From positions 1-37,957 of IMG/VR virus record IMGVR_UViG_3300035670_000626: a stretch of DNA of 37,957 bases; one strand, 5' to 3'. Positions 1-23,857 of the stretch are shown here, one piece after another. Under the pieces are notes generated by a model. It made no database searches. It was not told the origin of the DNA and saw only the letters and a list, made by a program, of their open reading frames with translations. This DNA comes from a virus. Positions within the stretch are counted from its first letter, which is position 1. Every line of letters starts with the position of its first letter. A program made the position numbers and the translations under genes.

Positions 1-4
1 CTCG

Positions 5-172
5 ATGCTCTACGCCCTGATGATCCACTTCTGCACAGAAACCCGGTGCGAAGATCACCACCTCAACAACTGGCCGAGCCTTGCCGAGTGCGAAGCTCAG
101 GCTACCAATTACCGTCTGCAGTCCCCCGGCGAGTATCTGCTGACCTGCACCCCTAAAGGAGTCGATCGATGA
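5..172 (+). CDS. Small hypothetical protein; 5' end uncertain at window edge
   Basis: The frame is open from the window edge to the TGA at 170-172. An ATG at 5-7 would give a 55-residue protein, but the ribosome binding site would lie outside the window, so the gene may be longer. The N-terminus (MLYALMIHFC) is hydrophobic and the rest is rich in Cys, His and Asn. The stop overlaps the next start as ATGA, as in the rest of this operon, which supports it being real. Function not recognised. Confidence 0.6.
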   Translation: MLYALMIHFCTETRCEDHHLNNWPSLAECEAQATNYRLQSPGEYLLTCTPKGVDR

Positions 173-585
173 ACGTGTACAGCAGCGCAGACAGCGATGG
201 CATGGCCAAGGCTCTCTACAACATTTACCTCAGCTACTGCTTCAACATCGAGGCCCGTGTGTTCTCCCTGGCCGCACAGGTGACGGAGAAGGGGTTCGTC
301 TGCTGGGAGTTCTGGGAGGAAGGCTTCGTCGGCATCTGGGTTCCGGAGACCGACGAGAAAGAGATCGAGGTCGAGTGCCTGGGAATGCAGTGCACCGTGG
401 CGATGAACCGGGCCACCCTGGGCGCGGCGCTGACCCTCATGGCCATCAACCACGAGATCTGGGCAGTTCACGAAGCCGGTGACGACCCGTCCTACCTGAT
501 CAAGCTCCAGGATGACCTGCAGGACTACGTCTACGCAGAGGGTTCCGGGTTCGATGCAGGCGCGGTGGCCAGCTTCCTGGATTGA
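169..585 (+). CDS. Conserved-looking phage protein of unknown function, acidic
   Basis: The 138-residue product is acidic and rich in aromatic residues, with a likely beta-rich segment (CWEFWEEGFVGIWVPE, about 45-60) followed by helical stretches. There is no signal peptide or membrane segment and no known catalytic motif. It starts at an ATGA overlap with the upstream gene and has AAAGGA about 9 bases before the ATG. It is the last gene of its run: a 48-bp gap follows that carries a TATTTA-core operator and a possible promoter. Placement among small early genes suggests a host-takeover or anti-defence role, but this is only context. Confidence 0.8.
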   Translation: MNVYSSADSDGMAKALYNIYLSYCFNIEARVFSLAAQVTEKGFVCWEFWEEGFVGIWVPETDEKEIEVECLGMQCTVAMNRATLGAALTLMAINHEIWAVHEAGDDPSYLIKLQDDLQDYVYAEGSGFDAGAVASFLD

Positions 586-625
586 CCTGTATTTATGGCA
601 ATAACTAAGTAAATAAGTACACAGG
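583..625 (+). promoter_or_regulatory. Putative promoter with TATTTA-core operator before the 634 gene
   Basis: TTGACC (583-588) and TAAGTA (606-611) are 17 bp apart and resemble sigma70 elements. The 13-bp near-palindrome CCTGTATTTATGG (586-598) overlaps the -35, an arrangement typical of a repressor site. The same 13-mer occurs in inverted orientation at 10918-10930. The AGGA at 623-626 is the ribosome binding site of the 634 gene. Confidence 0.5.
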
Positions 626-633
626 AATTAGTT

Positions 634-915
634 ATGCACAAGACTCTCTACGTCGCCCCCGGCCACAGTCAGTGCCGCCTCTACCTGATGCCCTACCCGA
701 TGAAGCCGGGGCAGCACCCCGAGGACATCCACTACATGCACCGCGAGTGGTGGGAGGAAGTCGGCCTGCTGAACGCCCAGCTGAAGGTGGTCTGGCTGGA
801 CGAGCGCCTGCATCTGCTGCACAGCGAGATCGAGGGCAACATGGGCGGCACTTTCTTCACCCTCACCGAGGACCACCAGTTCTACGACGGCCCTCCGATG
901 CAGGTGACGGCATGA
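634..915 (+). CDS. Hypothetical early phage protein, 93 aa
   Basis: First gene after the 583-625 promoter/operator, with AGGA 8 bases before its ATG. The product is soluble-looking, rich in His, Trp and Tyr (HREWWEEVGLL around residues 36-46), with no membrane segment or recognised motif. Its stop overlaps the next start (ATGA at 912-915), so it heads a translationally coupled operon. Function not recognised. Confidence 0.8.
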   Translation: MHKTLYVAPGHSQCRLYLMPYPMKPGQHPEDIHYMHREWWEEVGLLNAQLKVVWLDERLHLLHSEIEGNMGGTFFTLTEDHQFYDGPPMQVTA

Positions 916-1403
916 ACCGCCCACGCAAAGCCAGGGCGCACCGTCTGGTAGGCGCCCCGCCCTACGTGGTGTCGATCCACGACTCCGGGCCCAAGTACAA
1001 CGACCGCTACACCGTGTTCTTCGGCTGGCCGATCTGGCAGCCGAGTATGGGTCGATCGGTGCCGTTCCTCGGGTTCAACGAGTGCCCGACCAGTCCGAAC
1101 ATGGGCATCAGCCAGTGGGGCGAAGGCTTCTTCCCGGGCCGAGGCGGCCTCGGAAAGCAGATCTGCTGGAACGACCTCCCTGAGCACCTGCAACAGCACG
1201 TCATTGCCCGGGCCAATTACCCGTACAAGATCCAGGTCGGCCGGCTGGCCAGGCTGGAAGGCGCCCACAAGACAGGCCGGGATATGTGGGGGTTCGAGCC
1301 GCCGGACGGCATCGGCTACTTCGACAACGCCTTCCTCACCAAGAAGGAGGCCAGGGCCTACGCCCTGGCCAAAGGCATCATCATCCTGGAGCCCCGCAAA
1401 TGA
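912..1403 (+). CDS. Conserved phage protein of unknown function, 163 aa
   Basis: The start is the ATG at 912 in the ATGA junction; the frame is open further upstream, but that part is antisense-like shadow of the previous gene. The protein has a compact aromatic core (YTVFFGWPIW, then LGFNECPTSPNMGISQWGEG) that resembles a type of small phage protein seen in many siphophages, always without assigned function. No catalytic triad, zinc site or membrane helix is visible. Coupled by ATGA overlap to both neighbours. Confidence 0.8.
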   Translation: MNRPRKARAHRLVGAPPYVVSIHDSGPKYNDRYTVFFGWPIWQPSMGRSVPFLGFNECPTSPNMGISQWGEGFFPGRGGLGKQICWNDLPEHLQQHVIARANYPYKIQVGRLARLEGAHKTGRDMWGFEPPDGIGYFDNAFLTKKEARAYALAKGIIILEPRK

Positions 1404-1750
1404 TCCGCTACCTCGTCCACCTTCCCGATGACAGAAAGGTCCTGGCCTACGCCAACAGCCTGGCAGAGATGCAGTGCATCCACGGAAGCAACGCCTGGTA
1501 CCAGGAGTTGAACGACCTGGGCGACTACGCCCACCTCGACCGCTACTACATGAACGGCTCCAGCGGGCGCAACGCCCTGGCGGCCCGGGCCTGGAAGGCA
1601 AAGGACATCGCTCGGCGCCGAGGCGACCTGGTGATCATGCACCGTGTGCACCTGGATGCCGTGGCCAAGGCGTTGAACAACCTCAACAACAGCGAGCTGG
1701 TGAAACGGGCCAAAGCCCTGCTTGCTCGGCGAGGAGTGACCGGAAAATGA
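1400..1750 (+). CDS. Hypothetical protein, 116 aa
   Basis: Starts with MIRYLVHLPDD at the ATGA junction (1400-1403). The C-terminal half is predicted helical and basic (KALNNLNNSELVKRAKALLARR, quoted only in part by position 89-110), which could bind nucleic acid or a partner, but no family was recognised. It overlaps the next gene by 4 bases. Confidence 0.75.
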   Translation: MIRYLVHLPDDRKVLAYANSLAEMQCIHGSNAWYQELNDLGDYAHLDRYYMNGSSGRNALAARAWKAKDIARRRGDLVIMHRVHLDAVAKALNNLNNSELVKRAKALLARRGVTGK

Positions 1751-1944
1751 CCTACCGAGTGACCACGCCGAAGGGAGAGAAGAAGCTCCTGCCTGCCCAC
1801 CTGATCGAGCGCTTCCTGGTCGATGTGAACGGCGGCGGACTCAGCGTCGAGCAGACCATGAACGCTATGGAGGACGGCCACCGCCTCGATAAAGGCGAGA
1901 CCGTAACCCGCAACGGCTGGACCATTTGCAAGAAGGAACCGTAA
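1747..1944 (+). CDS. Small hypothetical protein, 65 aa
   Basis: ATGA overlap with the upstream gene sets the start. The small basic protein (MTYRVTTPKGEKK at the N-terminus, a C-terminal strand ending WTICKKEP) may be a small alpha/beta domain. No motif recognised. Two bases separate its stop from the next start. Confidence 0.7.
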   Translation: MTYRVTTPKGEKKLLPAHLIERFLVDVNGGGLSVEQTMNAMEDGHRLDKGETVTRNGWTICKKEP

Positions 1945-1946
1945 TT

Positions 1947-2402
1947 ATGGGTACCAAGACTTTCGTTTTCGCAAACCGGGCGAAGAACTACGCCGAGGAC
2001 AGCGCCGTGCTGGTAGGCAGCGATTACGTCGGAACTTACAGCGGCAAGACCCTCGGGGAGCTGCAGGTTCGTGACCCCGGTATCGAACTGATCGACGCGG
2101 AGGAGTTCGTCGAGCTGGTCGAACTGCGTATGACCACCGACCCGGTGGAGGTCGACGAGGAGCGGTACTGGTACCTCCTTGAGGTACTGCCGCCCTGCAG
2201 CTGGGTTCGTAATGGCAGCACCGAGTCGTTCTACATGAGCGAGTTCACCAGCGGCCGGGTCACCTGCCACGTGGTTCGCATCGGTGACCGCTATTTCACC
2301 TTCGAGGCCCCTGTAATGGCCTCCCACTCTGACCGAACCGCCAAGGTATTCGCATGGCTGGACAAGCAAGAGCAGAAGCCGGAATCGACATCCACCGTCT
2401 GA
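1947..2402 (+). CDS. Hypothetical protein, possibly DUF1419-like
   Basis: The ATG at 1947 is chosen over an upstream TTG at 1926 because AAGGA (1933-1937) is correctly spaced before it. The 151-residue acidic protein contains RYWYLLEVLPPCSW (about 72-85), then FYMSEFTSG and RIGDRYFTFEAP. This order of motifs resembles plasmid/phage DUF1419-type proteins, whose function is unknown; the assignment is from memory and weak. No membrane or signal segment. Confidence 0.75.
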   Translation: MGTKTFVFANRAKNYAEDSAVLVGSDYVGTYSGKTLGELQVRDPGIELIDAEEFVELVELRMTTDPVEVDEERYWYLLEVLPPCSWVRNGSTESFYMSEFTSGRVTCHVVRIGDRYFTFEAPVMASHSDRTAKVFAWLDKQEQKPESTSTV

Positions 2403-2668
2403 CCAGCGCCATCGTCGCTGACTGCCTCTACCACGAGGTGACACCCGCCCAGCGGCGGGCAGGCAAGACCATCAACTTCATGCACCTGTACCACCCGGAG
2501 GGCCGCTTCATGGTCACCGCAGACAGCATCGAACGCCGCATGACCCGCGAGGAGATCGTCGAGATCCTCGAGGGCCGCTACAGCATCCAGTGCTACGACC
2601 ACGAGTCGAAGCGCGAACTGGCCGAGGCCCTGGCGGAAGCGGCCAACACCGAGGGGGACGCCCTTTGA
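2354..2668 (+). CDS. Hypothetical protein, 104 aa, overlapping its upstream neighbour
   Basis: The only good start is the ATG at 2354, which makes a 49-bp out-of-frame overlap with the preceding gene, the longest in this cluster. CAAGG lies about 8 bases upstream. The product is helical and charged (HLYHPEGRFMVTADSIERRM in the middle), without a recognised domain. The C-terminus leads into a TTGA junction with the next gene. Confidence 0.65.
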   Translation: MAGQARAEAGIDIHRLTSAIVADCLYHEVTPAQRRAGKTINFMHLYHPEGRFMVTADSIERRMTREEIVEILEGRYSIQCYDHESKRELAEALAEAANTEGDAL

Positions 2669-2886
2669 TCCTCCACGAAGTGATAGCCGGCCAGAACCTC
2701 TTGTGGGTGCTGGACGAAGACTCCGGCGTAGCCACCAGGGCCATCTGCGAGGAAGCGGGCGCCGTGTTCAACGGCCCGCTGCCCCCTCCCTTCCAGAAGG
2801 ACCAGGCCGTGCTGGCCGACTTCGTCCTCCCCCGACAATCCGCAAATCTCCGCGCCAGACTGGCGCACGTAGGAGCAACAGCATGA
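2665..2886 (+). CDS. Small hypothetical protein with TTG start
   Basis: TTG at 2665 overlaps the previous stop (TTGA) and follows a strong GAGGGGG ribosome binding site, so it is preferred. The 73-residue product begins MILHEVIAGQNLLWVLDED and contains PLPPPFQKDQ, with a short basic C-terminus. No known motif. The next start overlaps as ATGA. Confidence 0.65.
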   Translation: MILHEVIAGQNLLWVLDEDSGVATRAICEEAGAVFNGPLPPPFQKDQAVLADFVLPRQSANLRARLAHVGATA

Positions 2887-3680
2887 ACCTGACGAAGGCC
2901 ATCCGCACCGAACTAGCCGAAAAGCTGATGATCAAGGCGATCGAAAAGCATGCGGATCCGATGGGAGCGGAGGCAGAACGCCTCAATAACGCCCTGGAAA
3001 CGGCGCACCGAGCGCGCCTGGCAGCTGCCATGCCGGAGGTACCACCAAGCCGGTATGCAGCGCTGATACAGGCGGGGATCCTCGCCTACACCGCTTCGGG
3101 CGCCGAGACCATCTACTACCCCGTCCGGCGTGAAGACGGGTCGCTCACAACCCGCTCGGAATCGCCTGGACAGGCCGTCATAGGCAAGGTCAGCGAGGAA
3201 GTAAGGGACCTCCTGCGCGGCACGGCGCTCAAGGGTAGCAAGTGGGCGAAGTTCTTCCACTACTTCAGTGTCGGCTGCTACTCCCACAGCATGGAAGCGC
3301 GACTGGAGATGGAGCCCAGGCTCAGCTGCTCCCTCCCTGACTTCAAGGGGCGCCACTACGTAAGGCTGGACGCCCAGGAGCCCGAAAACATCGCAGGTTG
3401 GTCTGAGGAGTCCTTGGACTACATGCAGGCCGTGGAACCGATTTTCGAGCAAGCCAAGAAGCTGGCCAGGGCTGCCGCCGAGGTATTCCGGCAGGGGCTG
3501 GAGTACCGAGAAGAGGTCATGGATCTCCTGCAGGCATGCAAGACCGATAAGCAGCTGCGGGAGCTGTTCCCGGAGGCCGCCAGCCTGTTGCCGGCGCCAG
3601 TGGTCAAGCAGCGAGCTTTGGTTCCGACCGAGCTGGCTGCCAAGGTTCGCAAGCAGCTGAAAGAAGGGGTGCCGGTATGA
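2883..3680 (+). CDS. Probable Nmad5-type putative nucleotide modification protein
   Basis: The 265-residue product starts MNLTKAIRTELAEKLM and ends with a helical region carrying KTDKQLRELFPEAASLLP (about 232-249). This layout of an N-terminal LTKAIR segment, a central beta region (GRHYVRLDAQEP) and a C-terminal FPEAA-LLP signature resembles Nmad5, a phage family proposed by comparative genomics to take part in DNA base modification; no enzymatic activity is established to my knowledge. It is the longest protein in the small-gene cluster. If the assignment is right, the phage DNA may carry an unusual base. Alternative: an unrelated helical phage protein. Confidence 0.55.
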   Translation: MNLTKAIRTELAEKLMIKAIEKHADPMGAEAERLNNALETAHRARLAAAMPEVPPSRYAALIQAGILAYTASGAETIYYPVRREDGSLTTRSESPGQAVIGKVSEEVRDLLRGTALKGSKWAKFFHYFSVGCYSHSMEARLEMEPRLSCSLPDFKGRHYVRLDAQEPENIAGWSEESLDYMQAVEPIFEQAKKLARAAAEVFRQGLEYREEVMDLLQACKTDKQLRELFPEAASLLPAPVVKQRALVPTELAAKVRKQLKEGVPV

Positions 3681-3958
3681 AGTGGGTAATCACCAAGGCA
3701 TTCGCCGCCCCGGATCCGCAGTTCGGCCCGATGCAGCGTGAACTGTTCGAGGACCCTGCCGTTGGCCAGGGCACCGTCGCGCTGACGGCGGCCGACGACT
3801 TGCCATTCCGCTTCCGCCTGATCAACGACGACGGGGTGCTGGTCTACGGGGGCCGCGCCGAGACCTACGGTACTGACCCGCTGACCTGGGCGGACGGCCG
3901 CGAAGGCGTCACCGAAATCCACTACCAGCAGGAGAACGGCGAATGGCAAAGCAGCTGA
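3677..3958 (+). CDS. Hypothetical protein, 93 aa
   Basis: Acidic protein starting MKWVITKAF at an ATGA overlap. The middle is beta-like (FRFRLINDDGVLVYGGR). The C-terminus overlaps the next gene by 16 bp. No motif recognised; no membrane segment. Confidence 0.75.
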   Translation: MKWVITKAFAAPDPQFGPMQRELFEDPAVGQGTVALTAADDLPFRFRLINDDGVLVYGGRAETYGTDPLTWADGREGVTEIHYQQENGEWQSS

Positions 3959-4143
3959 CTGAAGAAGCCCGACTGGAGTACATCCAGTCAGGAGGAGCCT
4001 GCTGCCCGTTCTGCGGCGGCGAGGAGCTGGACGGCCATGGCGTCAACATCGACTCCGGCACCGCTAGCCAGGAAGTGATGTGCACCGACTGTGGCCAAGG
4101 CTGGTTTGATGTCTACACCCTGACCAACGTGGAGGCAGCATGA
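3943..4143 (+). CDS. Small zinc-ribbon protein
   Basis: The 66-residue protein has two Cys pairs, CPFCGG (21-26) and CTDCGQGW (47-54), spaced as in a zinc ribbon, with a Cys also just before the first pair. Small phage zinc ribbons commonly bind nucleic acid or a host protein, but the partner here is unknown. The start lies inside the previous gene (16-bp overlap), and the stop overlaps the next start as ATGA. Confidence 0.8.
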   Translation: MAKQLTEEARLEYIQSGGACCPFCGGEELDGHGVNIDSGTASQEVMCTDCGQGWFDVYTLTNVEAA

Positions 4144-4517
4144 ACAGGCCAGAGGAACTCACGCCGAACGTCCTGAACCACCTGCTCAAGTTCGCCGAGA
4201 CCCGTGGTCGGTTCTGGCGCCGAAAGCTGCGCGACTACTGGCACACCGGGGTGACCTCCGGGTTCCTCGACCAGGACGAGGCCGCAGCGCTGCAGGCCGT
4301 GCGTAACAGCTTGGCCAACAAGCTGAACGCACTCTCCGTCGAGCAGCTGGCGGCCTGGGGGGAAGAAGACCGGTACCGCATTGCCGCCGAGGAGCTCTTC
4401 CATAAGGACGGCGAGTGCGAGATCGACGAGGGTGCCAAGGTATCGCTGGGCGATGACGAAGGCGCCTATGTCCAGGCATGGATATGGGTGCCGGCCAGCT
4501 ACCTGGTGGCCGCATGA
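4140..4517 (+). CDS. Hypothetical protein, 125 aa
   Basis: Starts MNRPEELTPNVLNHLLKFAE at an ATGA overlap. The N-terminal two thirds is helical and charged (RGRFWRRKLRDYWHTG), and the C-terminus looks beta-rich (YVQAWIWVPASYLV). No domain recognised. Coupled by ATGA to the following gene. Confidence 0.75.
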   Translation: MNRPEELTPNVLNHLLKFAETRGRFWRRKLRDYWHTGVTSGFLDQDEAAALQAVRNSLANKLNALSVEQLAAWGEEDRYRIAAEELFHKDGECEIDEGAKVSLGDDEGAYVQAWIWVPASYLVAA

Positions 4518-4840
4518 AAATGCCAGCCCTCACAGAGGTCGGCAGTGCCCGGGGTGCCCCAAAGGGGCGCCCCAGCGAGCACTCCGACGACGCCCTCTAC
4601 CCCGGCAAGTTCAACGTCGCTGCCCTCCCTATGGAAGCGTGCGGCGCCTACGACAGGGGTGGCGCCTACTGGGGCTGGGGAAGCCCTGAGCACGGTTATA
4701 TGTACCGGGCCTACTGCCTTGAGTACGACGAAATTAACGAGCGGGACTTCTTGGTTGACTGGTACTTCCGGGCGAATGGCCGGGAGCACGCCAAGCAGCT
4801 CGTTACCCAACGCTACCCGAACGCGAGGTTCTACAGGTAG
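4514..4840 (+). CDS. Conserved-looking phage protein, 108 aa
   Basis: Contains AYDRGGAYWGWG (about 45-56), a glycine/aromatic signature that recurs in small phage proteins of unknown function, followed by FLVDWYFRANGREHAK. The first 20 codons include a very stable hairpin (4551-4573), which may slow translation. A 30-bp gap separates it from the dihydrofolate reductase gene, which has its own ribosome binding site. Confidence 0.75.
   Translation: MKMPALTEVGSARGAPKGRPSEHSDDALYPGKFNVAALPMEACGAYDRGGAYWGWGSPEHGYMYRAYCLEYDEINERDFLVDWYFRANGREHAKQLVTQRYPNARFYR
4551..4573 (+). repeat. GC-rich hairpin inside the 4514 gene
   Basis: GGGGTGCCCC (4551-4560), loop AAA, GGGGCGCCCC (4564-4573). As RNA it forms a 10-bp stem with one G-U pair. 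It sits 37 bases after the start codon. No U tract follows, so it is not a standard terminator; it could pause ribosomes or polymerase. Confidence 0.6.
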
Positions 4841-4870
4841 CCGAACACCCCAAACGGATAGGAGGTAGTC

Positions 4871-5239
4871 GTGATCTATTTGATCGCAGCAGTCGGCCGC
4901 CAGGGCCAGATCGGGCTCAACGGCCGGCTGCCATGGAGAGATTCAGAGGACCTGAAGTGGTTCAAAGACCAGACGATGCGCAAGGTAGTCGTCTGCGGGT
5001 TCAACACCGCCCAGCACCTCCCGCCTCTGCCAGGTCGCACCCTGCACGTACTGCAGCGTGGAGAGACCCCGGAGCACGTCATCAAGCGGTATGCGGGAGT
5101 GGACATCTGGGTCATCGGTGGCGCCAAGACCTACCAGCAGTGGATCCCCTACGTGGACCGCTGCCTGGTCTCCCTCATTGACTACGACGGCCCGGCCGAC
5201 GCCTGGTTCCCGCCGATCATCCCAGGTGTGCAGCCATGA
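4871..5239 (+). CDS. folA: Dihydrofolate reductase (short phage form)
   Basis: Reduces dihydrofolate to tetrahydrofolate with NADPH in the cytoplasm, recycling the dihydrofolate made by thymidylate synthase. The N-terminus MIYLIAAVGRQGQIG and LPWRDSEDLKWFK match DHFR; the acidic residue needed for proton donation is D27, with W22 and F31 around it. PLPGRTLHVL and IWVIGGAKTYQQW fit the nucleotide-binding part. At 122 residues it is shorter than the usual 155-165; the shortening lies mainly in the middle. The GTG start at 4871 is supported by GGAGG (4861-4865). The partner thymidylate synthase is at 19.4 kb. Confidence 0.92.
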   Translation: MIYLIAAVGRQGQIGLNGRLPWRDSEDLKWFKDQTMRKVVVCGFNTAQHLPPLPGRTLHVLQRGETPEHVIKRYAGVDIWVIGGAKTYQQWIPYVDRCLVSLIDYDGPADAWFPPIIPGVQP

Positions 5240-5493
5240 GGGACCTCAAGTTTCTCCGAACGGAGCCTGGGTTTTGCCGAGTCTATTGCCGCGGCAACGA
5301 GAACAGCCTCTACTGCTTCCAGCTCTCCTGGGGCAGGCACTTCGAGCTGTTCCTGTGCACCTCCGACGGCGAGCCAAGCCACCGCGTTCCGCCGATCCGA
5401 ACTCTGGACAAGCTGCCGCCGGCAGAATGCCCGCTCACCACCGCGTTCTCGGCCTGGGTGGCCGACCAGGAGCATATATGCCTGTTGCAGTGA
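5236..5493 (+). CDS. Hypothetical protein, 85 aa
   Basis: Starts in the ATGA junction with the dihydrofolate reductase gene. It is Cys-rich (Cys 14, 18, 27, 41, 65, 82), beginning MRDLKFLRTEPGFCRVYCRG. The Cys are not in CxxC pairs, so a zinc site is uncertain. Overlaps the next gene by 16 bp. Function not recognised. Confidence 0.7.
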   Translation: MRDLKFLRTEPGFCRVYCRGNENSLYCFQLSWGRHFELFLCTSDGEPSHRVPPIRTLDKLPPAECPLTTAFSAWVADQEHICLLQ

Positions 5494-6176
5494 CTCACTG
5501 GCTGTACAAGTTCGAGGAGCTCAGCGACAGGGCCAAGGAGAAAGCCCGCAGCTGGTACCGGGAGGGCCAGCTCGACTATGACTGGTGGGACTTCATCTAC
5601 GAGGACGCCATGCGCATGGCCGAGATCCTCGGTATCGAGGTCGACTTCCGCTACCACGGGCCGCGATCCCCGGGAAAGAAGGGCTACAAGGAGCCGAAGA
5701 TCTGGTTCAGCGGGTTTTCCCATCAAGGTTCCGGCGCCTGCTGGGAAGGCAGCTACCGCTACGCCAAGGGCGCGCTGAAGAAGCTGCAGTCCGAGGCGCC
5801 GGCCCGCTACCAATACTTCAAGCCTGACGGAACGATGGAGTGGACGGAGAACAAGGGCAACATCGAGCTGCACCGCATAGCCAAGGCGCTGCAGAAGGTA
5901 CAGGACCGGCACTTCTACAAGTTGGTCGCAACCAGCACCCATCGCGGCCACTACAACCACTCCGGATGTATGAGCATCGAGGTTGAACACGACGAGGCCC
6001 CGTACCGCGACCTGGGTGACGCCGAGGACGACATCAAGGACGCCCTGCGGGACTTCGCCGACTGGATCTACCGCCGACTGGAGGAGGAGCACGACTGGCT
6101 CACCTCTGACGAGCAGGTGGACGAGTCGATCATCGCCAACGAATACACCTTCGACGAGGAAGGCAACCGTGAATAA
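5478..6176 (+). CDS. Phage protein of unknown function with ELSDRAKEKAR motif, 232 aa
   Basis: The ATG at 5478 is chosen as it starts the conserved part: YKFEELSDRAKEKARSWY, then DYDWWDFIYEDAMRMAEILGIEVD (by position about 28-50). This N-terminal pattern is familiar from phage and plasmid proteins sometimes labelled antitoxin-like, with no demonstrated function that I can name. The middle has aromatic/Gly-rich WFSGFSHQGSGACWEGSYRY and the C-terminus is strongly acidic (EEEHDWLTSDEQVDE). Acidic surface could mimic DNA or bind a host enzyme; this is inference. Long antisense and upstream frames here are shadows. Confidence 0.8.
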   Translation: MPVAVTHWLYKFEELSDRAKEKARSWYREGQLDYDWWDFIYEDAMRMAEILGIEVDFRYHGPRSPGKKGYKEPKIWFSGFSHQGSGACWEGSYRYAKGALKKLQSEAPARYQYFKPDGTMEWTENKGNIELHRIAKALQKVQDRHFYKLVATSTHRGHYNHSGCMSIEVEHDEAPYRDLGDAEDDIKDALRDFADWIYRRLEEEHDWLTSDEQVDESIIANEYTFDEEGNRE

Positions 6177-6498
6177 GGCCCAGGAGAAGGCGCGAGAGGA
6201 GAACATCAGGGAGCTGCAGCCGGCCTACCCCGGACTAAAGGACGCCGCCAAGCTGCAAGACAGGCTGTACAGCCTGGCCCTGCAAGCCGGACGAAACGCT
6301 GCGATGTTGTGCTCTGACAGCGCTACCTGGGTAGACCAGCGCCCTCAGTTGCGCGCCAAGGTTGCGGCGCTCGCCGCTCGGCATGGGATCAGCCTGGACT
6401 TTGAGCTGAGTGGGGACCCTCGCGGGTTCGCCCTGAAACTGCGACTGCCGACCGGCAGGAGCAACTCCTTTGCCGGCGAAGTATGGGGCATCGCTTGA
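6169..6498 (+). CDS. Hypothetical protein with GTG start, 109 aa
   Basis: GTG at 6169 is preceded by AGGAAGG at good spacing and overlaps the upstream stop by 8 bp. The N-terminal half is helical and basic, with a beta-like C-terminus (FELSGDPRGFALKLRLP). It is the last gene of the left cluster; an operator-bearing gap follows. No domain recognised. Confidence 0.75.
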   Translation: MNKAQEKAREENIRELQPAYPGLKDAAKLQDRLYSLALQAGRNAAMLCSDSATWVDQRPQLRAKVAALAARHGISLDFELSGDPRGFALKLRLPTGRSNSFAGEVWGIA

Positions 6499-6511
6499 GA
6501 TCGTACATAAA

Positions 6512-6556
6512 CCCATATTTATGGTCTTGTCATACCTGTATTGCCGGTGGCACTAT
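6512..6556 (+). promoter_or_regulatory. Promoter/operator region before the 6583 gene
   Basis: CCCATATTTATGG (6512-6524) is a strong copy of the phage-wide TATTTA-core site and CCTGTATTGCCGG (6535-6547) a weaker one 23 bp on. TTGTCA (6527-6532) and CACTAT (6551-6556) are 18 bp apart and could be a sigma70 promoter with the second site in its spacer. Confidence 0.5.
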
Positions 6557-6582
6557 AGGGACAGCTTAGGACAAGGCAAGCC

Positions 6583-6840
6583 ATGAACCTCAGAGACGCA
6601 GTCCTTTACCTGGAGCTGGCCGCCTACATCCACCGCAACAACGCGGCGGTGAAGAAGGTGGCCAAGCGCCTGGTTAAGAGAGCCCACCCAAACAACAGAC
6701 CGGCACTGGCACTGATATGCGAGAGCAAGAACCCACTGGCCGTCATCAAGCAGATGGCCGAGGAACTGTCGAAGCAGCGCTCGACGCAGTCGCCATGGCC
6801 CTACGAGGGATTCCCCCGACCACCGTTGAGGAGTCCGTAG
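6583..6840 (+). CDS. Hypothetical basic helical protein, 85 aa
   Basis: First gene after the 6512-6556 regulatory region, starting MNLRDAVLYLELAAYI. It is Lys/Arg-rich (VKKVAKRLVKRAH at about 24-36) and helical, so nucleic-acid or membrane-surface binding is possible. The last 15 residues (ending PRPPLRSP) look disordered and overlap the next gene by 46 bp. No family recognised. Confidence 0.7.
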   Translation: MNLRDAVLYLELAAYIHRNNAAVKKVAKRLVKRAHPNNRPALALICESKNPLAVIKQMAEELSKQRSTQSPWPYEGFPRPPLRSP

Positions 6841-6992
6841 CAGAGAGCCTGAAGTGCGAACTGCGTTACTCGTTGGTCGGCTGGCAAGGTGGCACCCACC
6901 CACTGGCCGAAAAGATAGCTCACGACCTTCACCGACTACAGCAAGACCTAGCAGCAGGAGAAAGCCATGCAACCGACAATGCAGCCACCTAA
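6795..6992 (+). CDS. Small hypothetical protein, 65 aa, overlapping both neighbours
   Basis: ATG at 6795 begins MALRGIPPTTVEESVAESLK; this frame looks coding because it continues past the end of the 6583 gene for 150 bp with typical codon use. No clear ribosome binding site is visible, so translation may depend on coupling. Overlaps the AlpA-like gene by 26 bp. Function not recognised. Confidence 0.5.
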   Translation: MALRGIPPTTVEESVAESLKCELRYSLVGWQGGTHPLAEKIAHDLHRLQQDLAAGESHATDNAAT

Positions 6993-7182
6993 GTACGTGT
7001 CCACTTCCCAGCTGTGCGACCGGTATCACCGGTCGAGTCGCACGCTGGCCCGTTGGCCTGAGACCAAGGGCTTCCCACGCCCTGTGATGCAGAGCGTGGG
7101 GGCCGAGAACCTCTGGCTACTCTCCGACGTGGAGAAGTGGGAAGCCGAGAACATGAAGTCCACGTTTGCCCTGGCAAGCTAG
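6967..7182 (+). CDS. AlpA/MerR-like helix-turn-helix protein, candidate excisionase
   Basis: The 71-residue product has YVSTSQLCDRYHRSSRTLARWPETKGFPRPVM (by position about 10-41), the layout of AlpA/Xis winged-helix proteins: helix-turn-helix, an RW-x-x-x-x-x-FP wing, then a short helix ending DVEKWEAE. Such proteins bend DNA at att sites or regulate integrase. The first ATG (6967) follows AGGAG at good spacing. Its stop shares the bases CTAG (7179-7182) with the stop of the integrase on the other strand, so the two genes converge. A convergent xis-int pair is less usual than a co-directional one. Confidence 0.75.
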   Translation: MQPTMQPPKYVSTSQLCDRYHRSSRTLARWPETKGFPRPVMQSVGAENLWLLSDVEKWEAENMKSTFALAS

Positions 7183-8402
7183 CCCCGTGGTGGGGTCGCA
7201 ACAATCTCCTGGATGCGGTCCCACCACTTCTTGTAGGCGGCAGCCTGCTCCTCAAGATAGAGGTGGCGGTCGTACACACCTTGCATACCCTTCAGGCTGT
7301 GTCCGAGCATCACTTCAGCAACATGCACATCGGTGAGCGACGAGAAGTTCGTCCTCGCCGTCTTCCGCAGGTCGTGCAGTGACCAGTGCGCCATCTCCGT
7401 GCCGAACCGGCGCTTCGCAGCCTTCCTCACTGCGTAGGGGTAACTGAGCACCGAGGACGAGTCCAGTACCTTGAGCGACGAGTCCTGGGTGAACAGGTGC
7501 TGCGGAGACCTCGAGTAGCTCAGCGCGTCCTTTAATAGGGGCACAACTTCTGGGATCAGCGGCCGGGTGATAGCCCGCCTGATCTTCTTCCTGATCTTGT
7601 TCTTCTCCGGCGGCACGACCCAGGTCATGGCGTCGAAGTCCAGCTCGGTGCGGGGGTCGATGTTCCGCAGCTCCCCGTTGCGGCAGCCAAAGAACAGGCA
7701 CAGCTTCAGGTAGAGCTTGCTCTTCGGAGTCATCCGAGACTGATCGACTGAGTGCCAGAACAGGCATATCTCCTCGTCGCTGAGCGCCCTGCCCGCTTCG
7801 TTGCGCTCGATGTTGAGATCCTCGGCCACGGAAACGCCCACCAGCGGCTTAGTCTTCATCGACTGCCGGCGGTAGGCCCACTTGTGCATCTGCTTGGTGG
7901 TCCGGAGGATCCGCTCAGCGATGCTCGGCGCATCGTCAGCCACCTTCTCTACCAGGCTGAGCCACTGGTTGGCTGTGGTCTGGTCAGCAGGCAGATCGCC
8001 AAGCACAGGGAAGACGTGTATCTCGAACGACCGCAGGTACTCCCCCGCCTGCTGCTTGTTCGCCAGGCAGTATTTCTCGTGGAAATCCCGGTACAGCTGC
8101 TCATTGGTCAGCTGGCCAGAGAGTTCTGCCCGCTCGACCTTCCTGACTGTACGGGGGTCATGCCCCTTCTCCAGCTCAGCCTTCAGCCGAAGGTGTTCGC
8201 TGCGGGCCTCTCGCAGGGACAGCAGGGGGTATGTACCCAGGTCGAGTCGGGCAGGCTTGCCTCCGATCCGGTACCGCATCTGGAAGACGATCTTCCCCTG
8301 CGGTGATACCCGGGCGCTGAGCCCGTCCCCGTCCGCCTTTTCGATAGCCTTCTCTTGAGGCTTTTTATGGTTGGCTTTTAGCCAAGAATCTGTTAGGGCC
8401 AT
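7179..8402 (-). CDS. int: Tyrosine recombinase integrase (P4-type, with DUF4102-like N-terminus)
   Basis: Catalyses site-specific recombination between phage attP and host attB. The N-terminus (MALTDSWLKANHKKP, DGDGLSARVSPQG, LDLGTYPLLSLREAR) matches the DUF4102 arm-binding domain of P4-type integrases; a SAM-like core-binding domain follows. Catalytic residues are visible: Arg in GCRNGELR, Lys in the PPEKNK hairpin, His-x-x-Arg in LHDLRKTAR, His in LGHS and Tyr in GVYDRHLY. ATG at 8402 gives 407 residues; an upstream in-frame start at 8447 would add 15 residues not typical of the family. No frameshift or missing residue is seen, so the enzyme should be active. Confidence 0.93.
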   Translation of the reverse strand: MALTDSWLKANHKKPQEKAIEKADGDGLSARVSPQGKIVFQMRYRIGGKPARLDLGTYPLLSLREARSEHLRLKAELEKGHDPRTVRKVERAELSGQLTNEQLYRDFHEKYCLANKQQAGEYLRSFEIHVFPVLGDLPADQTTANQWLSLVEKVADDAPSIAERILRTTKQMHKWAYRRQSMKTKPLVGVSVAEDLNIERNEAGRALSDEEICLFWHSVDQSRMTPKSKLYLKLCLFFGCRNGELRNIDPRTELDFDAMTWVVPPEKNKIRKKIRRAITRPLIPEVVPLLKDALSYSRSPQHLFTQDSSLKVLDSSSVLSYPYAVRKAAKRRFGTEMAHWSLHDLRKTARTNFSSLTDVHVAEVMLGHSLKGMQGVYDRHLYLEEQAAAYKKWWDRIQEIVATPPRG

Positions 8403-8455
8403 GTGATTTCCAGCGTGTACAAACCTAGACAGCAGCGAGCGTAGCATTTTCGGTG

Positions 8456-8476
8456 TTTGTACGCAGCTTTGTACAC
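8456..8476 (+). repeat. Paired TTTGTAC repeats, left pair
   Basis: TTTGTACGC (8456-8464) and TTTGTACAC (8468-8476) are direct repeats 12 bp apart. An inverted copy, GTGTACAAA (8415-8423), lies just upstream of the integrase start. Candidate arm-type integrase sites or regulator sites. Confidence 0.65.
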
Positions 8477-8561
8477 GCTTGAGCTGGCTGATATTGGTCG
8501 CTGGTGGCGGAAGGTGTCTTAGGTTTTAACAGTGAAACCAGCTATTTATCTACGTTGGAGC

Positions 8562-8599
8562 GGGGATATTGGCGGGGGATGTCGGGGGGTGTCAGGGGG
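8562..8599 (+). repeat. Four G tracts, potential G-quadruplex
   Basis: G runs of 4 (8562-8565), 5 (8574-8578), 6 (8584-8589) and 5 (8595-8599) are separated by loops of 8, 5 and 5 bases on the + strand. The last three lie in an imperfect 10-11-bp tandem array (GGGGGATGTC, GGGGGGTGTC, GGGGGTCAG). The pattern meets the usual definition of an intramolecular quadruplex. Confidence 0.65.
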
Positions 8600-8690
8600 T
8601 CAGAGGTTTATGTGGGCGATGATGCTGAAGTTGCGTATGTGGCTGAGATCACTGGACTTTTTGGCTTCTGACATCACGCTAAACCTGAAA

Positions 8691-8711
8691 TTTGTACACC
8701 GATTTGTACAC
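8691..8711 (+). repeat. Paired TTTGTAC repeats, right pair
   Basis: TTTGTACAC at 8691-8699 and again at 8703-8711, with the same 12-bp offset and orientation as the left pair 235 bp away. Confidence 0.7.
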
Positions 8712-8732
8712 AGAGCCGAAAGTGCCCTATTT

Positions 8733-8774
8733 CCTCCCTCGGCGAAGATGCGCGCATTCTACTGAGGAGGGAGG
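8733..8774. repeat. Inverted repeat CCTCCCTC/GAGGGAGG
   Basis: Eight-base perfect arms (8733-8740 and 8767-8774) with a 26-base spacer. A short T run follows. It may be a weak terminator or part of the attP-proximal structure; little more can be said. Confidence 0.4.
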
Positions 8775-8777
8775 GGC

Positions 8778-8849
8778 TTTTCCATTCGTAATAATTTGAT
8801 TACTATGTAGACCTGTATTTACAGCAATACAAGTTCCCAGAAACACAGA
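8778..8849 (+). promoter_or_regulatory. Promoter and paired operators before the ArsR-type gene
   Basis: TACTAT (8801-8806) is a likely -10, with a weak TTTTCC 17 bp upstream. CCTGTATTTACAG (8812-8824), a near-perfect palindrome, covers the expected start point. A degenerate inverted partner, CCAGAAACACAGA (8837-8849, 10 of 13 matches), lies 25 bp further on. This would suit autoregulation by the downstream regulator, but nothing proves that it binds here. Confidence 0.5.
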
Positions 8850-8863
8850 CGTAAGGGCCACGA

Positions 8864-9127
8864 ATGCAATCCGCAGAACTTCTCAGCAGCCTGGGCAATC
8901 CGGTCAGACTCCAGATCGTGGAGACACTGAGCGAGGCAGGCGAACTGTGCGTCAATGACGTCACCGAAAGACTCGGCGGCATGCAGTCGAACATCTCCCA
9001 TCACCTGCGCATCCTGCTCAACGCCGGCGCTGTGGAGATGAACAAGGTACAGACGAAGCGTGTCTATAAAGTGAAGGACAAGGTCGTCAAGCTGGTAAGT
9101 ATGGCCAAAGAGGTGGCCGATACTTGA
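8864..9127 (+). CDS. ArsR-type winged helix-turn-helix transcriptional regulator
   Basis: The 87-residue protein is a single ArsR-type domain: SLGNPVRLQIVETL (8-21), DVTERLGGMQSNISHHLRIL (recognition helix SNISHHLRIL at about 42-51) and a wing with VQTKRVYKVKD. It lacks the ELCVC metal-binding motif of ArsR/SmtB sensors (it has ELCVND), so it is probably not a metal sensor. It is the only obvious stand-alone repressor-like gene in the integration island and could be the lysogeny or early regulator. Its own promoter carries the TATTTA-core site, and a strong terminator follows at once, making it monocistronic. Confidence 0.88.
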   Translation: MQSAELLSSLGNPVRLQIVETLSEAGELCVNDVTERLGGMQSNISHHLRILLNAGAVEMNKVQTKRVYKVKDKVVKLVSMAKEVADT

Positions 9128-9170
9128 CTAAGGGCGGGCGCTGAAGCACGCTGAAAGGCAGCAAAAAAGA

Positions 9171-9193
9171 AGCCCCGCACTAGCGGGGCTTTT
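9171..9193 (+). terminator. Rho-independent terminator after the ArsR-type gene
   Basis: AGCCCCGC (9171-9178), loop ACTA, GCGGGGCT (9183-9190), then T residues; an A-rich run precedes it, so it may work in both directions. Confidence 0.92.
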
Positions 9194-9252
9194 AATTTGG
9201 AAATCACGGCCCGACTCTACCCGCCGTGCCGCTGCCCAGTCAAGGAACGCCA

Positions 9253-10194: not shown

Positions 10195-10509
10195 TTGAAC
10201 CAAAACCTGGCTCGACTCCGCGTGATGTCCGCTGAAAGCGGTGATCTAGGGTCGGCCGCTGCGCGAGATGCGTCAATTCAGACGTTTCTGAATGAGCTGG
10301 GCAACGTCGTCTGCGAACAGGTTATAGACCTGCTGCCAGACAGTAAGCTCCGATCGCTGTACGTCAGCTGGACTAAGCAGCTGGGGTTGGACGAGCTGAG
10401 CCGACGGACCTGGATCGCAGAAGGCGTCATTATCTCCCCTGCCGCAGCAGGCCGCGTCATCAACCCACCCACCTCTGAGAATGTATTCAAACTGCATGCG
10501 CGACATTGA
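10195..10509 (+). CDS. Unknown protein of the RHH operon, TTG start, 104 aa
   Basis: TTG at 10195 directly follows the TAA of the RHH gene, with GAGGT upstream. The product is mostly helical (FLNELGNVVCEQVIDLLPDS at about 31-50, then WTKQLGLDELSRRTWIAEG), without a recognised fold. It overlaps the next gene by 29 bp. As partner of an RHH regulator it could be a toxin, partition-like or anti-defence protein; nothing in the sequence decides this. Confidence 0.65.
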   Translation: MNQNLARLRVMSAESGDLGSAAARDASIQTFLNELGNVVCEQVIDLLPDSKLRSLYVSWTKQLGLDELSRRTWIAEGVIISPAAAGRVINPPTSENVFKLHARH

Positions 10510-12551: not shown

Positions 12552-12564
12552 GCCGGAGCCGATC

Positions 12565-12813: not shown

Positions 12814-12819
12814 AGGGCC

Positions 12820-20254: not shown

Positions 20255-23200
20255 ATGTACTCAATTCTCGACTTCCGCGCTGTCGTAAAGCACTCCTACT
20301 ACGGCGCCAGTGATCCGGAGGCCATGTTCTGCGAGGAGGTTGGCCGCCGATTCGCTAACTGGGAAGTGGCCGCCGCCGGCTTCATCAGCCGCTACATCGA
20401 GCCGATCATCGCTCAGGGCGGCAGCCCTCGTAACCTGCTGGTGGCCCACGATATGGGCCGCGAGTACCGCACCGCCCTGTTCCCCGGCTACAAGGCCGCC
20501 CGTGACGACGTGAAGCGCAGTCCTATCGAGGTCGAGCAGTGCGAGAAGCTGTTCGACTGGGCCAAGCACTTCCTGACCGCCCTGGGCGCCACCCAGATGG
20601 GCGTCAAGGGCGTGGAAGCTGACGACGTTATCGCCTGGCTGTGCGAGCGCATCACAGAGCCCAAGGCCGTGTACACGGTCGACGGCGACCTGCTGCAGCT
20701 CTGCAACGACAACACCATCGTCTACCTGAAGAACGAACCGTTCTACGGCGAAGGCGAAAAGGACGGCATCCCCTTCCACCTGACCAGCCTGGCCAAGTCC
20801 ATCCTGGGCGATAAGTCCGACTGCTACGGCGGCGTGAAGGGCCTGGGCATCGCCAAGGTCCAGCAGCTGCTGGAGAACTTCGGCGCCGACGGCGTAGAGG
20901 AACTGCAGGGTGTCGTCGAGACCGGCAACACCGAACTGCTGGACCAGGCCATTGAGCAGACCGGCGACAAGGTCCTGATCAAGCTCCGCGAGAACTTCGG
21001 CGAGTGGCGCACCATGTGGCGCCTGGCCAAACTGCACCCGGAGCTGTGCTGGAAGCCGCGTGCCAAGAAGCTGATCAAGCCGATGGTGCACAAGCGAATC
21101 CCGAACGGCCAGCAGCTGTTCAACCTGCTCAAGCAGGTGGGTTGCGAAGATATGTGGGACAGCGTGTTCGCCAGCTGCATGCCCTCCCAGCTCGCCATCA
21201 CCGCCAATAACTGGGAGGAGATGCGCGACGCCATCTTCGCCGAGATGGCCGCCGGTGACATCACCACCTTCGACTACGAGTCGTCCAACAAGGATCCGAT
21301 CCCGGAGTTTGCGCTGGCATCGACCCAGGGCGAGAACTTCGTCGACGTGCTCAGCCAGGAGCTGGCCGGCGCATCGTTCCAGTTCGGCCAGCACCTGGAG
21401 AACGTGATCTACGTCCCGGTCGACCACAAGGACACCGCCAACGTCGGCAAGCACGTCATTGCAGAGCTGCTGGAGCACGCCGGTCGGGTCAGCCGCCTGG
21501 TTGCGCACAACGTATTCTTCGAGGGCGTGGTCAGCCAGACCAACTTGAACCTGTCGCTGATCAACGTGCATGACACCCGCATGATGCAGCGCTACTACAA
21601 CGAGAACGCCGAGGCCCACCTCAAGGGGCTGTCGCTGGAGTACCTGGGCTACGAGCAGGCGTCCTACGCCGAGACCATGGCCAAGGGCAACGGCGGCAAG
21701 GGCGCCCAGACAATGTCTGAGCTGACCTTGGAAGAGGTGTTCAGCTACGGCGCCGACGACGCCCAGGTCACCGGCCACCTGTACGACCTGCTGAAGCTGA
21801 TGCTGATGCTCGACGAGCAGTGGGCGTTCTACGAGCAGTGGGCTGTAAACCCTACGGTGGTCCTGCAGCACAGCTACATCAAGGGCGTGGACATCAACTG
21901 GGCCTTGCAGCGCCGGGTGCACGAACGCGACCTCAAGCAGGTCGAGGACGGCATGGCCGAGCTGCGTGAGGTCCTGGAGGCAAACGTCACCGGCAACATC
22001 ACACCAGGCTGTGAGTCACTGATCGAGGCGGAGAAGGACTACATCTACCGGGCGGCGAAGAAGAAGGCCGACGGCGACGGCGAGGTCGCCAAAACCAAGC
22101 TGTATGAGTGGCGCACCAAGTTGGAACGGGCCTGCCAGTACATCCCGTACCGGGAAGACAGCGTAATGCCGGCGTTCTCGTTTACCGCCAAGCAGGTCAG
22201 CGCAGCGCTGGTTGCCGTTGGCCTGCCGGAGATCGAGAAGGTCACCGCCAAGGGCATCGGCGATTACATGGAGCAAGTCGGCTACGTCGGCTTCGACGCC
22301 GAGGAGTCTTTCAGCGCCCCGCAGGCTGAGTTGCTCAAGGCGATCACTTCGGCCGTATCCCGCAACGCACTGAAGGTTAAGCAGTTGGAGGCCAAGGTCA
22401 CGGCGGCTGCAGAGGCAGAGGACGAAGAGGCATACGAGCAGGCTCAGGCCGCTGTCGCGTCTGCCCAGGTAGCTTTCGATACTCTGGGTGAGGTTGTCCA
22501 GCGCCTGGCCGGCGTAGAGCCCAAGGTCATCAAGATCGGCGACGAGCTGAACGTAGGCAGCCCTGCTCAGATGCAGCACCTGCTCTACTGCAAGATCGGC
22601 GTACCGGTTCGACTGCGCGGCAAGCAAGCTGGCAAGGGCCGCCTGCAAGTTGGTATCACCGAGGCAGGTCCGTCCACCGACGAAACTGCGATTCTCACCG
22701 CGATTGCGAACGACATCGAGCGAGGCAGCTGGCAGCACGACGCGCTGGAAGCCCTGCTCAAGGTCAAGTCGGCCAGCACCCGGATCAGCCTGTACCACGA
22801 CAAGTACCCGCTGTGGCGCCACCGCGACGGCAAGCTGCACCCCTCCTTCACCGACGCCGGTACCGATACCCGCCGCCCGACCGGCTCCTCGCCGAACGTG
22901 CTGCAGGTGTCGAAGAAGGACAAGGCCATGCGCTCGATGTTCGTACCGCCGTCGCCTGACCACGTGGTCGTCGCAATCGACTACAACGGCCAGGAGATCC
23001 GCCTGATGGCCTGCGAGTCCGGCGACCCGGTGATGATCTCGGTCTACGACCCGGAGAACGAGAAGGACCTGCACAGCATGACCGGCTCTGGTATCGCCAA
23101 GATGGACTACGACGAGTTCGTGGCCGCCAAGGACGATGAAACCCATGAGCTGAACAAGCTGACCAACGCAATCCGGAAGAAGGCCAAGGGCGTCAACTTC

Positions 23201-23857
23201 GGCCTGGCCTACGGTGCCGGCCCTGCCACCCTGTCGCGCAACCTGATCGTACCGATCTCGGAAGCAGAAGCGCTGCTCAGCGGCACTATGAACCTGTATT
23301 CCCAGATTCCTGTATGGCAGCAGAACACGGCGAAGTTCATGGAGCGCAACGGGTTCACCCTTACCGCCTTCGGCACCAAGCGCCACGCCAACGACGACAT
23401 CTTCAGCAAGGACCACGGCAAGGTCAGCCGTCAGCACCGTCAGGGCACCAACGCAACGATCCAAGGCACCGCCGCGGAGATGCTGCGCATCGTGCTCACC
23501 GGAATCGTTGACCGAGACCTGCTGAATCGCCTGGACATGGTGTTCTTCGCACCGATCTACGACGAAACCGTGGCCTTCGTGCACAAGGACGACGTCGTCG
23601 AATACTGCCGCGAGATGAACGAGATCATGTCCTCCGCCACCCCGCCGGGTCACGTCGTCAAGCAGGTTCCCGAGTTCTCGATCGGACCTGACTGGGGTCG
23701 TGTACACGAGCTGGGCCGCTATCCGGGCGAGGAGAAGATCCTCGAAGCGGTTCGCCGCAGCCTGGACGAGGCGAAGGAGATCTGGGAGGTGGACATGCTG
23801 CAGCCGTTCGATCCTATCCGTAACAAGTACCAGGAAGTTCTGGAGGAAGCTGCGTGA
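20255..23857 (+). CDS. polA: Three-domain family A DNA polymerase (PolI with 5' nuclease)
   Basis: Replicative polymerase, 1200 residues. The N-terminus is a 5'-3' FEN/PIN nuclease: FPGYKAARDD (76-85), EADD (121-124), VDGDLLQL (142-149), GDKSDCYGGVKGLG (185-198). A 3'-5' proofreading domain follows: D340-x-E342, ExoII N419 in AHNVFFEG, ExoIII YGADD (498-502). The polymerase has motif A DYNGQEIRL (909-917), motif B R974-K978-F982-Y986 and motif C YDE (1102-1104). Motif C carries Tyr where PolI has His, and ExoII has Glu where the family usually has Asp. A helical, partly coiled-coil stretch (about 560-760) lies between exonuclease and palm. GGAG precedes the ATG; GTGA overlap with the next gene. 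Confidence 0.96.
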   Translation: MYSILDFRAVVKHSYYGASDPEAMFCEEVGRRFANWEVAAAGFISRYIEPIIAQGGSPRNLLVAHDMGREYRTALFPGYKAARDDVKRSPIEVEQCEKLFDWAKHFLTALGATQMGVKGVEADDVIAWLCERITEPKAVYTVDGDLLQLCNDNTIVYLKNEPFYGEGEKDGIPFHLTSLAKSILGDKSDCYGGVKGLGIAKVQQLLENFGADGVEELQGVVETGNTELLDQAIEQTGDKVLIKLRENFGEWRTMWRLAKLHPELCWKPRAKKLIKPMVHKRIPNGQQLFNLLKQVGCEDMWDSVFASCMPSQLAITANNWEEMRDAIFAEMAAGDITTFDYESSNKDPIPEFALASTQGENFVDVLSQELAGASFQFGQHLENVIYVPVDHKDTANVGKHVIAELLEHAGRVSRLVAHNVFFEGVVSQTNLNLSLINVHDTRMMQRYYNENAEAHLKGLSLEYLGYEQASYAETMAKGNGGKGAQTMSELTLEEVFSYGADDAQVTGHLYDLLKLMLMLDEQWAFYEQWAVNPTVVLQHSYIKGVDINWALQRRVHERDLKQVEDGMAELREVLEANVTGNITPGCESLIEAEKDYIYRAAKKKADGDGEVAKTKLYEWRTKLERACQYIPYREDSVMPAFSFTAKQVSAALVAVGLPEIEKVTAKGIGDYMEQVGYVGFDAEESFSAPQAELLKAITSAVSRNALKVKQLEAKVTAAAEAEDEEAYEQAQAAVASAQVAFDTLGEVVQRLAGVEPKVIKIGDELNVGSPAQMQHLLYCKIGVPVRLRGKQAGKGRLQVGITEAGPSTDETAILTAIANDIERGSWQHDALEALLKVKSASTRISLYHDKYPLWRHRDGKLHPSFTDAGTDTRRPTGSSPNVLQVSKKDKAMRSMFVPPSPDHVVVAIDYNGQEIRLMACESGDPVMISVYDPENEKDLHSMTGSGIAKMDYDEFVAAKDDETHELNKLTNAIRKKAKGVNFGLAYGAGPATLSRNLIVPISEAEALLSGTMNLYSQIPVWQQNTAKFMERNGFTLTAFGTKRHANDDIFSKDHGKVSRQHRQGTNATIQGTAAEMLRIVLTGIVDRDLLNRLDMVFFAPIYDETVAFVHKDDVVEYCREMNEIMSSATPPGHVVKQVPEFSIGPDWGRVHELGRYPGEEKILEAVRRSLDEAKEIWEVDMLQPFDPIRNKYQEVLEEAA

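Follow-up and report, generated by a model that had tools for sequence, protein, structure and literature searches.

What does a dense run of small, mostly unrecognised phage genes encode, and does any gene in it point to a specific role? The stretch analysed here (the window) is the entire IMG/VR virus record IMGVR_UViG_3300035670_000626, of 37,957 bases, which is linear and therefore probably a fragment. The run begins at its left end and contains g8, a gene of 104 amino acids (aa) that encodes a standalone slice of DNA polymerase A (PolA, the family of Pol I). The gene cluster itself is ordinary in form, and the polymerase slice is the finding. The identity of the slice and the selection acting on it are strongly supported by the data below, from which we infer a mechanism.

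A standalone piece of DNA polymerase A

The original prediction held that only a dihydrofolate reductase (DHFR), a zinc ribbon and an Nmad5-like protein were recognisable among positions 1-6498. This proved incomplete, as g8 also matches the Pfam family DNA_pol_A (E 1.3e-6) over residues 8-89 with 28 bits, which is under the curated cut-off of 34.3, and NCBIfam DNA polymerase I models match residues 9-46. The aligned segment of E. coli Pol I is given in Table 1, with Pol I numbering counted from the chain position in the profile match to the PDB. The motif B/O-helix pattern (R...K...F/Y...Y) is present in the window as R34, K38, F42 and Y46.

Searches with tblastn and scans of IMG/VR revealed homologues of g8 in phages PMBT3 (120 aa) and Lana (126 aa) and in the IMG/VR contigs L002, L010, L011 and L021, so that the family comprises seven distinct members of 104-127 aa including the window, and all seven match DNA_pol_A. 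When the family profile was compared with the PDB, a Klenow-type Pol I was the first match (E 8e-8), and the alignment spanned motif A to motif B. An hhalign comparison of g8 with a single PolA target gave a probability of 98.6%. From these alignments, g8 almost certainly derives from PolA. Motif A, with the catalytic Asp (DYxxxE), is located at the start of five of the seven members. Motif C, the thumb, the exonuclease and the rest of the palm are absent from all members, and the slice spans at most about 70 residues of the polymerase domain, for which the Pfam model has 381 positions. A Pol I slice that lacks motif C, the thumb and the exonuclease cannot polymerise alone, and for this reason g8 cannot do so. 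Among the papers listed by our literature searches, none showed such a standalone slice protein, which is not proof that none is in print.

Selection and residue conservation

Between the window and L002, g8 accumulated 17.5 synonymous changes at 72 sites and 14.5 non-synonymous changes at 240 sites. The ratio of non-synonymous to synonymous rates (dN/dS) was 0.22 for the whole gene and 0.17 outside the overlap with g7 (Fisher p 3e-5), and g8 is thus a separate gene under purifying selection. It very probably has a selected function. The evolutionary relic explanation, in which these slices are translated remnants of displaced polA genes with no role, can be set against these data. Polymerase displacement has been reported in phages, in the passage cited here (PMC11348598), and the loss of motif A in two members and the shift of R754 in four would agree with decay. 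The purifying selection on g8 speaks against such a relic, as does a reading frame that stays open across members at identities to the Lana protein down to 31%. Additionally, in five members the C-terminal tail, which is not of polymerase origin, shows the same conservation as the slice (65% each). We consider a relic improbable.

Positions 705, 710, 712, 734, 754, 758, 762 and 766 of Pol I are those that we take to be active-site positions. Relative to E. coli Pol I, these eight positions were 96% retained in the g8 members, compared with 29% at 52 others.

Relation to full-length polymerases

The window phage, Lana and PMBT3 each carry a separate full PolA besides the slice. All three enzymes contain motifs A and B and a motif C that reads YDE, where HDE would be expected. 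A bacterial PolA profile run over 5508 six-frame open reading frames (ORFs) from 15 sources matched only polymerase genes and the seven slices. A separate motif C piece was not found among these ORFs, and g8 as one half of a split polymerase was ruled out for the 15 sources.

The g8 profile scored only -0.1 to 3.6 bits against the resident PolAs of four phages, compared with 35 bits for Klenow in the PDB search. Ten other PolAs gave 29-58 bits, although they were chosen from the profile's own matches, so that the Klenow value is the fair comparison. In trees of the segment, built from 69-73 columns, g8 was located on one side of a branch with support of 94/86, or 99/100 after a long row was dropped, and the residents were supported at 100/100; the first tree carried a long-branch warning, and the bootstrap of the second was not quite settled. 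E. coli was found on the residents' side and g8 stood apart on a long branch, leaving the source PolA of g8 undecided. The profile scores and the trees together ruled out a recent duplicate of the resident PolA.

Polymerase slices in Pectobacterium phages

A second set of slices was found in Pectobacterium phages. ORF5 of PPWS2, deposited as "DNA polymerase", and QFP93595 of CX5, deposited as "hypothetical", are both 60-aa slices that begin with a motif A-like start, continue through a DIH segment and motif B, and then end. Both exceed the Pfam DNA_pol_A cut-off, at 45.7 and 47.5 bits versus 34.3. PPWS2 ORF5 is located at 1964-2146 of 44,716, near the left end and surrounded by small ORFs, while the full polymerase of this phage (780 aa, ORF27) lies at 12534-14876, with the slice 10 kb before it. 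The left ends of such phages usually hold early genes. Because the PPWS2 slice lies in a left-end region of small genes, an expectation of host takeover or counter-defence fits it better than a metabolic role. A search for Nmad5 in the first 20 kb of PPWS2, and in a 5.1-kb stretch surrounding the CX5 gene, found no match. The Pectobacterium slices were separate from g8 in the tree, and one common origin was not rejected (approximately unbiased test, p-AU 0.116).

A PHROG family of 62 positions with no assigned function, phrog_38792, matches both the PPWS2 slice (1964-2146, L087) and the CX5 slice (2450-2632, L080) at E of about 8e-6. By its similarity, this family may contain further standalone polymerase slices.

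A pattern scan of 84,980 genomes returned 96 stretches, 49 of them with a relative; all 49 were PolA ORFs with motif C, three of which were cut by a contig end. A search of plasmids gave no match at E 0.01. Lana's slice matched 26 phage records, four of which were Lana and PMBT3 themselves. One CX5 record and one PPWS2 record among the 26 were slices, and six unannotated faecal records were full or edge-cut PolAs; this classification does not include the second record of the CX5 type, the second PPWS2 record or a further 12 labelled DNA polymerase. The PPWS2 slice matched 979 phage records, and among the 60 listed, two called "hypothetical" were long ORFs by annotation. In IMG/VR, it matched PPWS2 itself and 11 long PolA-like ORFs. 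Two candidate slices, L078 and L079, were rejected, as both are long PolA-like ORFs. The slices listed here represent a minimum number.

The Nmad5-family neighbour

In five of the seven members, g10 either overlaps g8 or directly adjoins it, and in the other two one small gene (g9) lies between them; the L010 neighbour was assigned as Nmad5 from its first 20 residues. The match to PF18757 passes the curated cut-off and spans residues 174-255 of 265, and g10 belongs to phrog_15487 (E 1.2e-39). Its AlphaFold2 (AF2) model was good, with a predicted local distance difference test score (pLDDT) of 84. Viral matches to this model at E of at most 0.001 were proteins of PMBT3 and phCDa, and Nmad5-named proteins followed at E 0.002 to 0.2. 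No clear match was found in the PDB (best Foldseek E 0.12; best VIA Z 5.7).

Relatives of g10 carry the name DNA polymerase, or that of DNA polymerase A, in PMBT3, CRPAP1904 and the RefSeq records of Lana, KPP25 and R18, and are called hypothetical in other records of the same phages. No similarity of g10 to PolA was detectable by hhalign with one target (0.06%), and no meaningful PDB sequence match was found, which ruled out g10 as a second polymerase piece. These results suggest that the polymerase name is wrong in several records, and our guess is that it drifted from the adjacent slice.

As g8 and g10 are so often neighbours, we considered whether g8 might serve a modification step together with the g10 protein, either by binding a nucleotide or primer end for it or by regulating it. 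The retained nucleotide-site residues of g8 agree with such a partnership, and an excerpt on M6-like phages lists Nmad5 in a thymidine modification cassette (PMC9476957). On the other hand, g10 was found without a detectable g8 nearby, within limited flanks, in nine other phages and contigs (KPP25, R18, Jeremy, UAntarctica, L013-L016 and L019), and tblastn with Lana's slice against the whole phage collection found none in KPP25, R18, Jeremy or UAntarctica. The Pectobacterium slices lack an Nmad5 match in the stretches searched, and the literature covered reports no modified base for these phages. A partnership that had earlier seemed possible is now judged unlikely, because slices were found with no Nmad5 gene nearby.

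Excerpts on Dhillonvirus describe a point mutation in nmad5 that allowed escape from the Tmn defence, a deletion that did not, and failed cloning of the gene with apparent toxicity (PMC11846954). As the mutation and not the deletion permits escape, Nmad5 is tied in these excerpts to sensing by a defence and is not an established anti-defence protein.

Adjacent to g10, the gene order differs among phages. The g10 relative of Lana, PMBT3 and UAntarctica directly precedes a gene of about 105 aa, which is followed by a helicase. The window differs in that g10 is separated, by the integrase and several further genes, from the gene at 10195-10509, which by eye resembles the 105-aa gene; by gene order, this layout gives the appearance of an inserted lysogeny module.

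A proposed role for the slice

Our leading explanation, offered tentatively and at somewhat less than an even chance, is that g8 arose by exaptation of a slice from a family-A polymerase and most likely mimics the polymerase active site without being catalytic. That it mimics or decoys a polymerase surface is conceivable, and we put this part a shade more cautiously. The slice would retain the face that Pol I presents to the incoming nucleotide, and through this face it would bind something that normally meets a polymerase. Candidate targets would be the partners or substrates of host Pol I, or a polymerase-recognising host factor or defence; in the Pseudomonas phages, an alternative target could be a nucleotide handled with the neighbouring Nmad5 protein. 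Polymerase mimicry is favoured over an Nmad5-specific role because g8 is under selection, because the active-site face is retained and because slices occur both with and without an Nmad5 neighbour. A broader and more speculative proposal, which we hold with clear reservation, is that phages repeatedly excised the motif A-motif B slice of Pol I and retained it as an independent, non-catalytic active-site mimic for use against the host or its defences or for nucleotide handling, forming a class that has gone unnoticed among small genes.

Several observations weigh against active-site mimicry. Motif A is gone from two of the seven members (the window and L002), and R754 is displaced by a one-residue insertion in four; if it is scored as lost, retention at the eight positions falls from 96% to 89%. 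These eight positions are also among the most conserved of PolA, so that part of their retention is expected. The O-helix varies between the window and L002 (F to Y among other changes) and residues 61-90 are identical, and by this comparison the tail may matter more than the O-helix. In the Pectobacterium slices, motif A has a Glu in place of the catalytic Asp, and the two slices, with four synonymous and five non-synonymous changes, are too close for a selection test. The AF2 model of g8 was poor (pLDDT 53) and a fold search with it returned nothing, leaving an independent fold unproven.

The run of small genes

Positions 1-6498 hold 18 plus-strand ORFs of 55-265 aa and are 98.7% coding. Neighbouring ORFs overlap at 14 of the 17 junctions, by exactly four bases at 10 of them, which bears out the dense run of small overlapping genes that had been described. 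The original prediction had counted about 17 genes and set the limit at 6498; the run is real, with 18 ORFs, and its right limit was misplaced, as the small genes continue to the excisionase-like gene that ends at 7182. At the left, the run ends where the record ends, and g1 sits at this end of a linear, probably incomplete record. The GC content was highest at the third codon position in all 18 ORFs in frame and in none of the 18 in each shifted frame. Coverage of the run by plus-strand ORFs of at least 55 aa was 99%, compared with at most 84% in 200 mononucleotide shuffles. Contig L002 contains collinear homologues of 19 of the 20 genes g2-g21, g11 being the one without a match, and dN/dS between the window and L002, with gene overlaps uncorrected, was 0.08-0.50 in 18 genes of the run and undefined for g18. 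In L002, a protein that by eye resembles the TnpB/IS605 type is encoded on the minus strand at 5438-6583, between the homologues of g3 and g4. Elsewhere, the window encodes a replication module (a Dda-like helicase, primase, thymidylate synthase, DNA polymerase A, deoxynucleoside monophosphate kinase and DNA ligase domain) and, on the minus strand, a CHAP protein.

Early expression of the run is presumed. A promoter scan of positions 1-9300 gave no support for it: the three promoter-like sites found were all on the minus strand and close in number to chance. Megablast of the run against phages gave no matches, and blastn matched seven records, confined to the g17 and DHFR regions.

Table 1. 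Coordinates and supporting matches of features in the window.
Feature	Position	Strand	Evidence
g1-g7, small ORFs, function not confident	5..2402	+	g2-g7 have homologues in L002
g4, phrog_4496	within 5..2402	+	E 5e-6
g7, weak DUF1419 match	within 5..2402	+	Under cut-off
g8, standalone DNA polymerase A slice with motif B/O-helix, 104 aa	2354..2668	+	PF00476 E 1.3e-6
g8 residues 12-47, equivalent to E. coli Pol I 732-767 (DIH ... RRAGKTINFMHLY)	2387..2494	+	Alignments
g9, 73 aa, TTG start, between g8 and g10	2665..2886	+	No family match; also in L002
g10, Nmad5-family protein, 265 aa	2883..3680	+	PF18757 36.7 bits, cut-off 27
g11, 93 aa	3677..3958	+	No match in L002
g12, zinc ribbon, Lar-like	3943..4143	+	Under cut-offs
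g13, phrog_6739	4140..4517	+	By eye like proteins upstream of g10 in Lana and UAntarctica
g14, 108 aa	4514..4840	+	No family match; homologue in L002
g15, short dihydrofolate reductase, 122 aa	4871..5239	+	PF00186 E 1e-21
g16, 85 aa	5236..5493	+	No family match; homologue in L002
g17, phrog_5162 family, mildly acidic	5478..6176	+	
g18, 109 aa, GTG start	6169..6498	+	No family match; homologue in L002
g21, excisionase-like DNA-binding protein, end of the run	6967..7182	+	phrog_1553 E 5e-7
Tyrosine integrase, convergent with the run	7179..8447	-	Phage_integrase, Arm-DNA-bind_3
Resident DNA polymerase A, 1200 aa, motifs A, B and C	20255..23857	+	

Only g10 and g15 among the 18 genes exceed Pfam curated cut-offs. 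The DHFR and Nmad5 assignments made earlier thus stand, and that of the zinc ribbon is weaker: against Lar, g12 missed both the Pfam cut-off (21.5 bits versus 28.6) and that of NCBIfam (19.6 versus 39.6). The DHFR match of g15 scored 77.6 bits against a cut-off of 25 and covers model positions 1-129 of 159; the L002 homologue is similarly short (123 aa).

The protein starting at 5478, g17, had been called strongly acidic and a possible DNA mimic. We found a pI of 5.2, 20% D+E and a charge of -14 over 232 aa, which is not the charge of a DNA mimic, and g2 and g12 are more acidic, with a pI of 4.1. The phrog_5162 family was found in 46 phage records, and nearly all of the 40 listed are called hypothetical; a relative in one Acinetobacter phage carries the name "RNA polymerase binding protein". 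Several relatives are located inside annotated terminal-repeat regions of giant Caulobacter phages, and these copies hint at an early role and are the sole pointer to one. Anti-defence roles of g12 and g17 are conceivable. As first picks for further work, g17 and the zinc ribbon are weak choices, and g8 is more informative.

Genes for host takeover and counter-defence may fairly be expected in such clusters, and for the individual genes here this is an expectation alone. One could therefore regard the run as an ordinary cluster of this kind, in which the polymerase homology is incidental. Its compact small genes and the g17 homologues in annotated terminal repeats are in keeping with that account, which is nevertheless unspecific: Pfam and NCBIfam scans of the run found no anti-defence family above cut-off, and the recurrence of the same slice is left unexplained. 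We regard this account as very unlikely.

Two proteins beyond the run were also noted. Beside the integrase, positions 8864-9127 encode a small ArsR-type winged-helix protein (HTH_5) with a weak match to a PHROG family named Ren-like exclusion protein. The 222-aa protein at 9226-9894 is seen by eye also in L002 at 14800-15441, and searches of PHROGs and Pfam gave no match for it under the limits applied.

Comparison with known systems

Databases label polymerase slices either as hypothetical or plainly as "DNA polymerase". A 2026 survey of bacterial polymerases discarded fragments of fewer than 200 residues, as described in the part cited here (PMC12926913), and since short fragments are discarded, slices escape such surveys. 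A slice that is under selection and keeps the nucleotide-binding surface while lacking the catalytic core offers a natural test of what the polymerase fingers can do alone. It is also a ready candidate for a factor directed at a polymerase in host takeover or counter-defence.

Compared with the family-A polymerases (Pol I, Klenow; PF00476), the homology of the g8 family extends from motif A to motif B and takes in the O-helix residues, whereas the family has only about 70 residues or fewer of the domain and lacks motif C, the thumb and the exonuclease. PPWS2 ORF5 and CX5 QFP93595 resemble g8 as standalone slices of the same segment within small-gene clusters, and PPWS2, like the window phage, also has a full PolA; they differ in being shorter, in belonging to another PolA subtype and in having no Nmad5 gene in the stretches searched. 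The accounts of Nmad5 (PF18757) in Dhillonvirus and M6-like phages concern the family matched by the neighbour g10, and the passages cited from them mention no polymerase slice (PMC11846954, PMC9476957). In the cited part of PMC11348598, divPolA1 and divPolA2 are, like g8, divergent PolA-derived phage proteins, some of them beside another polymerase; in contrast to g8, whose members have only 104-127 aa, they keep a palm domain that is thought to be active. Chordopoxvirus F12 is likewise a viral polymerase-derived protein in another role, which the cited excerpt describes as an inactivated DNA polymerase (PMC4304020), whereas g8 comes from a family-A enzyme and is only a small slice of it.

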